Shown here: positions 4,116-20,463 of the stretch, piece after piece | Layout: each line of letters opens with the position of its first letter | Position numbering within the stretch: position 1 is the stretch's first letter | Origin: an uncultured Gilliamella sp. | Lineage (GTDB): Bacteria > Pseudomonadota > Gammaproteobacteria > Enterobacterales > Orbaceae | NCBI GenBank assembly: GCA_946480175.1 | Contig: CAMLIK010000003.1 | Coordinates: 16,145 to 80,144 of the forward strand | Direction: 5' to 3' | Length of the DNA: 64,000 bases | Notes under the pieces: generated by a model | What the model saw: only the letters and a program-made list of their open reading frames with translations | What the model was told of the DNA's origin: nothing | Database searches by the model: none | Made by a program: the position numbers and the translations under genes

Positions 4116-4258
4116 GGTGAAATTAAATAGGCATTGAATGATATCAATGCTTTAAATAAAAAATATTAAAAAAATAGAATTGATAAACAAAATAGACTTG
4201 CACTTATGTTAATGGGTTGCTATTCTTTTTGCTTGTGATTTTGATTGAGGTTTTAGCA

Positions 4259-4588
4259 ATGACATTTTCTGAAGTAACAAAAATATTTGCGACAAGCTTG
4301 CCTGGTACTGATTCGTACGTAAAATTACGTAAGGCTATGAGAACATTAATCCAAGAAGATCCAAGTAACGCATCCGTTTACTTTTTGATATTTGGATTTG
4401 CACGCACTTATGTCATGTTATATGAAGATCAGGAAGTTTCACCACAATTTGCTGAGGACAATCAAAAATTAATGTTATCGTATCTCAATATACTTGATGA
4501 GGCTTTAAAAAAACAAGATGCCGAAAGTATCTATAAAGCATTAAATAAAGTAGTGAATGAATACGAAAACAGCAAAAAGGTATTTTAG
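4259..4588 (+). CDS. Small conserved-looking hypothetical protein (~109 aa)
   Basis: Complete ORF with a downstream terminator; no family recognised. Confidence 0.6.
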   Translation: MTFSEVTKIFATSLPGTDSYVKLRKAMRTLIQEDPSNASVYFLIFGFARTYVMLYEDQEVSPQFAEDNQKLMLSYLNILDEALKKQDAESIYKALNKVVNEYENSKKVF

Positions 4589-4595
4589 TTATTTA

Positions 4596-4629
4596 CAGCC
4601 TGACATGAAAATGTCGGGCTGTTTTATTT
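4596..4629 (+). terminator. Rho-independent terminator
   Basis: CAGCCTGACAT-GAAA-ATGTCGGGCTG then TTTTATTT. Confidence 0.85.
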
Positions 4630-4651
4630 AGAGTTTATTTTAGGAAAAATA

Positions 4652-4723
4652 ATGAATATTGTAATGATGATCTTAGGCATTATTAGTACCACCGGCACTA
4701 TTATTAATTATAGGGCGGGTTAA
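4652..4723 (+). CDS. thrL: thr operon leader peptide MNIVMMILGIISTTGTIINYRAG*
   Basis: 23-codon ORF with 3 Thr and 6 Ile codons, immediately 5' of an attenuator and thrA; not in the ORF track. Confidence 0.85.
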   Translation: MNIVMMILGIISTTGTIINYRAG

Positions 4724-4773
4724 TTTTTCCTTAAAAAAATATCAAAAAACCCGCCCCAAAAGGCGGGTTTTTT
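4713..4773 (+). promoter_or_regulatory. thr attenuator: antiterminator strand plus intrinsic terminator
   Basis: GGGCGGG (4713-4719) is exactly complementary to CCCGCCC (4750-4756), which also forms the terminator stem AAAAAACCCGCC/GGCGGGTTTTTT (4744-4755/4762-4773). Confidence 0.88.
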
Positions 4774-4901
4774 ACTTTGTAAAATAAAAAAGTTATAAAA
4801 TTAAAGTAAATAGATTTCAAAATATTGATTTTATGAGTTTTTCTTAAAATTATATTTTGAATTATCATTGGCATAAATTAGGAAATTAAATAAGGTGAGA
4901 T

Positions 4902-7358
4902 ATGAAAGTTTTAAAATTTGGAGGAACATCAGTTGCCAACGCAGAACGGTTTTTGCGTGTAGCAGAGATTATTGAAAATAATGCTAAACAAGAACAAACG
5001 GCAACAGTTTTATCTGCACCAGCTAAAATTACTAACCATTTAGTTGCAATGGTTGAAAAAACCGTTGCAAAGCAAGATATCCAAACCAATATCTACGATG
5101 CTGAAAAAATCTTTGCAGATTTATTAACTGGTATTGCAAAAGCGTTACCTAATTTTGCCTATGAAGAAATGAAAAAGTTTGCTCTAAACGAGTTAAATAA
5201 TGTCAAACAATTGTTAGAAGGTATTCGACTATTAGGTCAATGTCCTGATAGTATTAATGCCACAATCATTTGCCGAGGGGAAAAACTTTCGATTGCAATT
5301 ATGCAAGAATTGTTGAAGGCAAAAGGTCATGCTGTCACTGTTATTAATCCAGTAGCAATGTTAATTGCTACTGGGGATTATTTAGAATCAACAGTTGATA
5401 TCATCGAATCATCTCATCGAATCAGTGAAATGCGTATTCCTCCAGAAAATATGATTTTGATGCCAGGTTTTACCGCAGGTAACGAAAAGGGGGAATTAGT
5501 TGTTTTAGGACGTAATGGTTCTGATTATTCTGCTTCAGTATTAGCCGCGTGTTTACGCGCCAATAGCTGCGAAATTTGGACTGATGTGGATGGGGTTTAT
5601 ACGTGTGATCCTCGGATTGTTCCAGATGCCAAATTATTAAAAACGATGTCTTATCAAGAAGCAATGGAACTCTCTTATTTTGGTGCTAAGGTACTTCATC
5701 CAAGAACAATTTTACCTATAGCTCAATTCCAAATTCCATGCTTAATAAAAAATACTAATAATCCAGATGCACCAGGTACTTTAATTGGTGCTAATGTTAT
5801 TGATAGTTCAACGCCTGTAAAAGGTATCACTAACCTAAATAATATGGCTATGATTAATGTATCTGGTCCAGGATTAAAAGGCATGGTTGGTATGTCAGCT
5901 CGGGTTTTTTCCGCTATGTCTTATGCCGGTATTTCTGTGGTACTTATAACGCAATCGTCGTCTGAATATAGTATTAGTTTTTGTGTGCCTCAAACCGAAC
6001 TTTATCGGGCTGAAGAGGCATTAAGTGAAGAATTTTATTTAGAATTAAAAGATGGTTTACTTGAACCAATTGAAGTGATCGAAAAATTGGCAATTATCTC
6101 AGTGGTTGGTGATGGTATGCGTACATTACGTGGCTTATCGGCTAATTTCTTTACAGCATTAGCTCGAGCCAATATTAACATTGTGGCAATTGCGCAAGGT
6201 TCATCAGAGCGCTCAATCTCTGTTGTAGTTGATAATGATGTTGCTGTAATGGGTGTGCGTGTGACTCACCAAATGTTATTTGGTACTGACAAAATGTTAG
6301 ATGTGTTTGTTATTGGTGTTGGTGGTGTTGGTGGTGCATTGGTGGATCAAATCGGTCGTCAACAAAAATGGCTTAAAAATAAACAAATTGATCTGCGTGT
6401 TTGTGGTTTATTTAATTCCAAGCACTCTGTACTTAATCGTGATGGTATCAATTTAGATAATTGGCGTAATCAAATAAAACAAAGTGAAACCAATTATACG
6501 TTAAATAGTATTATTGAATTTGCTAAAAATAACCGGCTCCTCAATCCAATTTTAGTCGACTGTACTTCAAGTAGTGAGGTATCAGATAAATATGTTGATT
6601 TTCTTGCTAATGGTTTTCATGTTGTAACACCGAATAAGAAAGCCAATACTAGTTCAATGGCTTATTACCTTCGTTTACGCCAAGAGGCAGCAAATAGCAA
6701 GCGTAAATTCCAATATGATACTAACGTTGGTGCTGGGCTGCCGGTAATTGAGAATTTACAAAATTTGCTTAATGCCGGTGACGAATTAATTAAGTTTTCA
6801 GGTATTTTATCGGGTTCATTATCTTTTATTTTTGGTAAGTTAGATGAAGGTATGTCATTATCAGAAGCAACGAAGTTGGCCAAAGAAAAGGGGTTTACTG
6901 AGCCTGACCCTCGTGATGACTTATCAGGTACCGACGTAGCTAGAAAACTATTAATCTTAGCAAGGGAGGCTGGATTACAACTTGAACTTGATCAAATTAA
7001 AGTTGAATCAGTGCTACCTGCAGAATATTCTCAAGGCTCTATTGATGAGTTTATGGCAAAATTGCCACAATTGGATTTGCAATTTAAAGAAAAATCAGAA
7101 AAAGCAGCTAAACAAGGAAAAGTACTACGTTATGTCGGTAGCATTGATGGAAATCAATGTAGCGTCAAAATAGAAGCCGTTGATACTGATGATCCACTTT
7201 ATAAAGTTAAAAATGGTGAAAATGCCTTAGCATTTTATACTAGGTATTATCAACCAATTCCATTAGTATTACGTGGTTATGGTGCTGGTAATGATGTTAC
7301 TGCAGCTGGTGTGTTTGCTGATATTTTACGAACCACATCTGGAAAAATTGGAGGCTAA
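4902..7358 (+). CDS. thrA: Bifunctional aspartokinase I / homoserine dehydrogenase I
   Basis: [18 protein letters not shown]-terminus, ACT region, HSD domain [12 protein letters not shown], 818 aa. Confidence 0.97.
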
Positions 7359-8297
7359 ATGAGTCATAAATCATTAACTATTTATGCACCTGCATCAATG
7401 GCAAATATTAGCGTTGGCTTTGATATTTTAGGTGCAGCAATCAATCCAATTAGTGGTGCGATGTTAGGTGACTGCATAACCATTGAGTCTGCAACTGAGT
7501 TTCGCCTTACAAGCAGAGGTCAATTTGTTAAAAAACTACCGAAAGACCCAAAATACAATATTGTGTATCAATGTTGGCAACGTTTTTGTAAAGCTATGGG
7601 TAAAACATTACCGGTTAAAATAACGCTAGAAAAAAATATGCCAATTGGTTCTGGATTAGGTTCAAGTGCTTGTTCTGTTGTTGGCGCTTTTGTTGCGTTA
7701 AATAAGTTTTTTGATGAACCATTTAATGAATTTGAAATGCTTACCATGATGGGGGAACTGGAAGGTCGCATTTCTGGTAGTGTACATTATGATAATGTCG
7801 CTCCTTGTTACTTAGGTGGAATGCAACTTATCCTTGATGAAATGGGGGTGATAAGTGAAGCGATACCGCATTTTGACAATTGGTATTGGGTAATGGCTTA
7901 TCCAGGTATTAAAGTTTCTACCGCTGAAGCTCGAGCAATATTACCTGCTCAATACCAAAAAGCAGATTGTGTTGCGCATGGTCGTTATGTAGGTGGTTTT
8001 TTACATGCTTGTTATACTAAACAACCTAAACTTGCTTCGGCAATGTTGATTGATAATATTGCTGAGCCTTATCGTAAACAGTTGCTACCTAATTTTGATG
8101 CGACACAAAAAAAGGTAAAACAACTTGGTGCATTAGCCTCTGGTATATCAGGTTCAGGACCGACAATGTTTGTGGTAGCAGATAATCTTGAAACTGCACA
8201 GCAAATAGAGTCATTATTGAAAAGTTCTTATTTGCAAAATGAAGATGGTTTTACTCATATTTGTAAAATAGATCCACATGGTGCAAGAGAGATTTAA
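7359..8297 (+). CDS. thrB: Homoserine kinase
   Basis: GHMP kinase motif [15 protein letters not shown]; directly follows thrA. Confidence 0.97.
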
Positions 8298-8374
8298 GTT
8301 AATTGTTATTAAATAAAACAATAAGATTAAATCAAAAAGAAAACAATTAAAGTATAAAATTATTGGAAAATATT

Positions 8375-9664
8375 ATGAAACTGTATAACTTAAAAGATCA
8401 TTCCGAGCAGGTTAGTTTTGCGCAGGCGGTACAACAAGGATTAGGAAGAGGACAAGGTTTGTTTTTCCCAGAACAATTACCAAAATTTTCTGCGCAAGAA
8501 ATAGAAGCATTATTAAAAATGGACTTTATTACACGAAGTGCCAAAATCTTATCCGCTTTTATTGGCAATGAAATTAACGATAATGATATGCATCGATTAG
8601 TGCAAAATGCTTTCCAATTTCCTGCCCCCGTTAAATCGGTAGAAGATGATATTGGATCATTAGAACTTTATCATGGTCCGACATTAGCATTTAAAGATTT
8701 TGGTGGACGCTTTATGGCACAAGCTTTAGTCCAAGTTGCTGCCGATAAAAAAATCACCATTTTGACTGCAACTTCGGGAGATACTGGTGCTGCTGTTGCC
8801 CATGCATTTTATCACTTACCAAATATTCGTGTCGTGATTTTATATCCAGAAGGTAAAATTAGCCCATTACAAGAGAAGCTCTTTTGTACGTTAGGTGATA
8901 ACATTCACACCATCGCTATTCAAAGTGATTTTGATGCCTGCCAAGCTTTAGTTAAAAAAGCGTTTGATGATGAAGAACTAAAAACTACTATTGGTTTAAA
9001 TTCAGCTAATTCTATCAATATCAGTCGGCTTTTGGCGCAGATCTGCTATTATTTTGAGGCTTACGCGCAGCTTACCGCCAAACAACGTGAACAATTAGTT
9101 ATTTCCGTACCAAGTGGTAATTTTGGTGATTTAACTGCTGGTTTACTAGCAAAAACCATGGGACTACCTATCAAACGTTTTATTGCTGCGACAAATGCTA
9201 ATGATACTGTTCCTCGTTATTTAGAAACGGGTAAATGGGAGCCCCATAAAACTGTGGCAACATTATCTAATGCTATGGATGTTAGTCAACCAAACAACTG
9301 GCCAAGGATTGAAGAAATTTATCAGAGGGAAGATTGGATACTTAAATCATTAGGGCATGCAGCTGTTTCAGATGAAACTTCAGTAAAAACGGTTCAGGAA
9401 TTGGATAAAAAAGGTTATTTATCCGAACCTCATGGTGCTATTGCCTATCGGGCATTACGAGATCAGTTGCAAGAAGGAGAGTATGGTTTATTTTTAGGGA
9501 CAGCTCATCCAGCTAAATTTAAAGAAGTAGTTGAAGACATCCTTGGTCGATCAATTTCATTACCATCAGCCTTGGCTGAAAGAGCTGAGATGCCATTACT
9601 TTCTCACTATATGCCGGATAATTTTACTAAATTGCGTGATTTCTTAATCTCATTAACATGGTAA
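8375..9664 (+). CDS. thrC: Threonine synthase
   Basis: MKLYNLKDHSEQVSFAQAV; PLP motif GPTLAFKDFGGRF. Confidence 0.97.
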   Translation: MKLYNLKDHSEQVSFAQAVQQGLGRGQGLFFPEQLPKFSAQEIEALLKMDFITRSAKILSAFIGNEINDNDMHRLVQNAFQFPAPVKSVEDDIGSLELYHGPTLAFKDFGGRFMAQALVQVAADKKITILTATSGDTGAAVAHAFYHLPNIRVVILYPEGKISPLQEKLFCTLGDNIHTIAIQSDFDACQALVKKAFDDEELKTTIGLNSANSINISRLLAQICYYFEAYAQLTAKQREQLVISVPSGNFGDLTAGLLAKTMGLPIKRFIAATNANDTVPRYLETGKWEPHKTVATLSNAMDVSQPNNWPRIEEIYQREDWILKSLGHAAVSDETSVKTVQELDKKGYLSEPHGAIAYRALRDQLQEGEYGLFLGTAHPAKFKEVVEDILGRSISLPSALAERAEMPLLSHYMPDNFTKLRDFLISLTW

Positions 9665-20275: not shown

Positions 20276-20463
20276 TCATTAGTTTTTTTGATATTGTAAA
20301 TGCAATCCATATCTGACTTTATCTTTATTAAGCTGATTATTTGATTGCGTTTACTAGCATAACACTTTATAATCCCTAGCGCTTTTTAAAGCACTAATTT
20401 TATAGCCAACTACTGGGTCGCCTGTAATTGGTTTTTTATTTGAAATAAATAAGAGAAATCGAT

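Follow-up and report, generated by a model that had tools for sequence, protein, structure and literature searches.

The window, as we call the whole 64-kb stretch of DNA analysed (G+C 0.336), belongs to a genome of the Gilliamella group of Orbaceae and carries on its + strand a thr operon whose thrA has its nearest named relatives in Gilliamella apicola, G. apis and Gilliamella sp. (97% identity). thrA (4902–7358), the first gene under the proposed control, encodes an 818-aa bifunctional aspartokinase/homoserine dehydrogenase with Pfam Homoserine_dh, AA_kinase and ACT domains, and is followed on the same strand by a gene for a GHMP kinase in the position of thrB, homoserine kinase (7359–8297), and by thrC, threonine synthase (8363–9664), both assigned by domain search. 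Ahead of thrA, an upstream gene (4217–4588) is followed by a terminator-like hairpin (4595–4622; 12 pairs, a loop of 4 and a T-rich tail), a ribosome-binding site AGGA for the leader (4642–4645), read from the sequence, the leader peptide ORF (4652–4723) and an intrinsic terminator (4744–4773), the hairpin and all that follows it lying on the + strand. AGGAAA(A) precedes the leader ATG in most Gilliamella. Between terminator and thrA lies an A+T-rich gap of 128 nt (4774–4901); this gap is about 130–175 nt in other Gilliamella and about 25–65 nt in many enterics. Elsewhere in the window, an Rfam L25-Gammaproteobacteria ribosomal protein leader scores above its cut-off (20406–20431, + strand, 36.3 bits).

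The hairpin 3′ of the upstream gene is conserved in most Orbaceae and leaves no more than about 30 nt to the leader ATG, which means that the thr promoter must overlap or adjoin the hairpin. A scan of the + strand 5′ of the leader found no sigma-70-type promoter. CTGACA (4600–4605), in the 5′ arm of the hairpin, and TTTATT (4623–4628), separated by 17 nt, form a possible weak sigma-70 promoter. In two relatives without the hairpin (L126 and L128), TTGACA or TTGACT stands at a similar place, followed after 17 nt by TAAAAC.

The leader ORF begins with ATG at 4652, runs for 23 codons to a TAA stop at 4721–4723 and encodes MNIVMMILGIISTTGTIINYRAG*. Of the 22 residues that follow Met, 9 are Thr or Ile; the share of these two residues is 14.5% over five long ORFs elsewhere used for comparison from the window (binomial p=0.002). 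Modelled stall scans point to Ile10, Ile11, Thr13, Thr14, Thr16, Ile17 and Ile18 (4679–4705) as the control codons. The last codons before the stop, AGG GCG GGT, contain GGGCGGG (4713–4719), which is complementary to CCCGCCC at 4750–4756; each of these heptamers is unique on the window's + strand. Together with the T of the stop codon, the end of the leader supplies the antiterminator strand GGGCGGGTT (region 2, 4713–4721), which can form nine pairs, seven of them G-C, with AACCCGCCC (4748–4756) in the 5′ side of the terminator. The terminator, AAAAAACCCGCC-CCAAAA-GGCGGGTTTTTT, comprises regions 3 and 4 and has 12 perfect pairs, the loop CCAAAA and a run of six T. A sequence-only reading of this DNA had described the leader ORF, its GGGCGGG end, the complementary CCCGCCC and the terminator before thrA, all of them correct to the base. 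It had also proposed folding the RNA, and the region from 4630 to 4800 (+ strand) indeed folds much better than shuffled sequences, with an energy of −43.2 kcal/mol where these average −28.3 kcal/mol (z=−3.9; none of 200 shuffles as good).

The thr locus is present in 42 of 44 Orbaceae genomes, the two without a match being 59% and 74% complete, and a Thr/Ile-rich leader, an antiterminator strand and a terminator stand 5′ of thrA in all 42. Forty of these were found by one pattern, to which are added L017, from another scan and on the same contig as L109, and the variant L119. The leader and both pairings, on whose conservation in relatives the sequence-only reading had staked its case, are kept in every locus-bearing genome; because the element is conserved in relatives, a chance origin is untenable.

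Among Orbaceae, the leader peptide drifts in sequence, but its Thr/Ile positions and its -AG at the C terminus hold. The penultimate Ala codon is GCG in 39 of 40 leaders and the Gly codon is GGT in all 40, GCG being a minor Ala codon in the window (26 of 216 Ala codons in five genes). In the sole GCG exception, L097, GTG (Val) replaces Ala and a G-U pair is retained. In L119 (variant region at about 264–281, − strand), the leader stop codon, TAG, sits just 5′ of the antiterminator strand, and AGAGCGGGT is retained untranslated. To judge from these leaders, the conserved unit at the leader end is the RNA and not the amino acids. In the same order, the genome of about 1.1 Mb to which L138 belongs (G085 contig C1) retains a full-length thrA; the scan used found no leader with terminator 5′ of this gene, possibly reflecting their loss in a reduced genome.

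The Rfam Thr_leader model (RF00506) matches the locus end to end with 43.9 bits (E=4.5e-7), below the gathering cut-off of 55 bits, which none of the 44 Orbaceae genomes passes. Full-length matches at the right place are found in many Orbaceae genomes, with best E-values of 1e-7 to 1e-5, and indicate homology despite the sub-cut-off scores. The earlier description of the leader as unlike E. coli thrL stands insofar as the leader is divergent and scores below the cut-off, and falls insofar as it shares the -AG* end and matches Thr_leader from end to end. Two sets of further matches were rejected as attenuators: weaker RF00506 matches on contig C16 are ordinary terminator hairpins beside a ClpB-like chaperone gene (identity read from the ORF), and minus-strand RF00506 and Phe_leader matches at the leader site are a product of terminator symmetry.

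Attenuation in response to Thr and Ile through thrL is long established in E. coli. Like enteric thrL, the Orbaceae element stands before thrABC and combines a 20–25-aa Thr/Ile leader, last codons GCG GGY that encode -AG* and hold the antiterminator strand, a terminator 5′ arm A(A/G)CCCGC and a stop-to-terminator spacing of about 13–25 nt. The coding of the antiterminator strand by the last leader codons, which the sequence-only reading took for a compact departure from the enteric arrangement, is the enteric arrangement: in E. coli K-12 thrL, GGTGCGGGCT stands at −9 relative to the stop codon, and the leaders of all 56 sampled Enterobacterales end in GCG GGC, giving the peptide end -GAG*. Leaders of several other families in the GTDB order also have a C-terminal -GAG or similar. 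Unlike enteric thrL, the Orbaceae leader has fewer Thr codons and relatively more Ile, GGT where enterics have GGC, with a corresponding A instead of G in the terminator arm, and a weaker protector (1:2) hairpin.

The exchange between GGT and GGC extends to the pairing. GCG GGT T stands with AACCCGC in Orbaceae, and GCG GGC followed by T stands with AGCCCGC in the 56 Enterobacterales relatives; Orbus hercynius (L020/L120) has GCGGGTT with AGCCCGC, a G-U intermediate. At antiterminator pair 54/87, C-G is found in 20 rows (enterics) and U-A in 19 (Orbaceae), with both sides altered in 19 cells; 93.5% are paired, as opposed to at most 52.7% when slid, and none of 500 shuffles matches the covariation score. 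In most cases the terminator's 3′ arm follows this exchange. An alignment for covariation, suggested in the sequence-only reading, yields a compensatory U-A/C-G exchange between Orbaceae and Enterobacterales, which is essentially, for the most part, one old event separating two clades. Within the Orbaceae-only alignment, antiterminator covariation was not above shuffles, region 2 being near-invariant and gaps being misplaced in CCCGC. RNAalifold gives a weak consensus for the Orbaceae alignment (−2.2 kcal/mol) because mutually exclusive helices share columns.

We consider it very probable, at roughly 0.93, that this bee-gut Gilliamella-like locus is a ribosome-mediated transcription attenuator of thrABC, homologous to enteric thrL. 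Comparison supports this mechanism well, as far as sequences can speak to it, in the position before thrABC, the conservation in all locus-bearing Orbaceae, the nucleotide-level constraint on codons and the compensatory change. We infer leader translation and regulated termination, with Thr and Ile as the signals. A shortage of Thr- or Ile-tRNA would stall the ribosome within codons 10–18; region 2 could then pair with the terminator's 5′ arm, and with the antiterminator formed RNA polymerase would read into thrA.

In stalled-ribosome folding, a model that takes downstream RNA as free from A-site +14 and treats the footprint and folding kinetics crudely, the antiterminator forms whenever the A site is at one of codons 1–17 of this leader, with region 2 unoccupied, and is blocked at codon 18 and every later position as far as the stop codon. 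Across species, the modelled switch falls at codon −6, which is the downstream edge of the Thr/Ile run, and the Thr/Ile codons are concentrated between −6 and −14. The antiterminator is predicted, from sequence and model only, to be mutually exclusive with the terminator and to have its strand covered when a ribosome stands at the stop codon of the leader. Once the 3′ arm has been synthesized, the terminator is the more stable of the two in the folding model, and the choice between them must therefore be kinetic, in agreement with the general attenuation scheme (PMC1183508). The proposed switch resembles the enteric trp and his attenuators, in which stalling at control codons frees region 2 for region 3, and differs from them in its amino acids and operons; thr is itself listed among the known attenuators (PMC1183508). 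The trp leader has a clear I:II pause hairpin, whereas its Gilliamella equivalent is weak.

That weakness bears on a sub-version of the thr attenuator, possible but rather unlikely, in which the switch is two-state and default-on: the protector hairpin would be effectively lost, and an untranslated leader would lead to antitermination and not to superattenuation. The modelled ribosome-free probability of the antiterminator, in RNA reaching up to the 5′ arm, is 0.98 here and averages 0.94 over 36 Orbaceae leaders; for 49 enteric leaders the mean is 0.27, and for E. coli K-12 the value is 0.15. Most Orbaceae favour the antiterminator in this calculation, and most enterics do not, although these are equilibrium estimates and the 1:2 hairpin forms first in transcription. 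The leader-only fold, with a mean of −14.9 kcal/mol in Orbaceae against −23.7 in enterics, also favours a default-on switch. Most Orbaceae nevertheless keep a short 1:2 helix (GC.CU with AG.GC), where C-G and U-A are exchanged six times, and some enteric and other families are likewise modelled as default-on. The protector hairpin at this locus is weak, but those of some other families are equally so, and weakness is thus not unique to Orbaceae. Its pairing is not above that of codon shuffles, and the same holds for the E. coli K-12 hairpin. We rejected the codon-shuffle test as proof of protector loss: the observed pairing is reached by 42% of shuffles in Orbaceae and 3% in 12 enterics but by 55% in E. 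coli K-12, so that the test fails to tell E. coli K-12 and Orbaceae apart and is not diagnostic. Doubtful to a greater degree is the broader proposal that the protector hairpin has been largely lost from the thr leaders of Orbaceae, that these leaders are default-on when untranslated and that Ile-weighted control makes isoleucine a signal as important as threonine.

It is very improbable that a constitutive partial terminator sets basal thrA expression beside an unrelated small hydrophobic peptide with a role of its own, for although the leader peptide is short and hydrophobic and the terminator strong by itself, the last codons are kept as nucleotides complementary to the terminator arm and not as residues (L097, L119), the leader peptide drifts everywhere but at Thr, Ile and the -AG end, and E. 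coli thrL shows the same layout.

The ribosome-mediated attenuator is the reading that we retain. By every feature testable in sequence, the element fits a thr-operon leader-peptide attenuator, and the Gilliamella leader is, on the same footing, a homologous, divergent thrL, a switch of a well-known kind. A literature search returned no paper linking Gilliamella with leader-peptide attenuation; its results did not include Vitreschak et al., 2004, reportedly the main comparative survey of proteobacterial attenuators. The present Rfam model misses the Orbaceae copies at its cut-off. The comparison adds a whole insect-gut symbiont family to the range of the thrL-type attenuator and otherwise confirms established knowledge. 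The diverged Orbaceae leaders are useful natural variation, comprising the G-U intermediate of Orbus, a Val substitution that preserves pairing and a shift of the stop codon that keeps the RNA strand.
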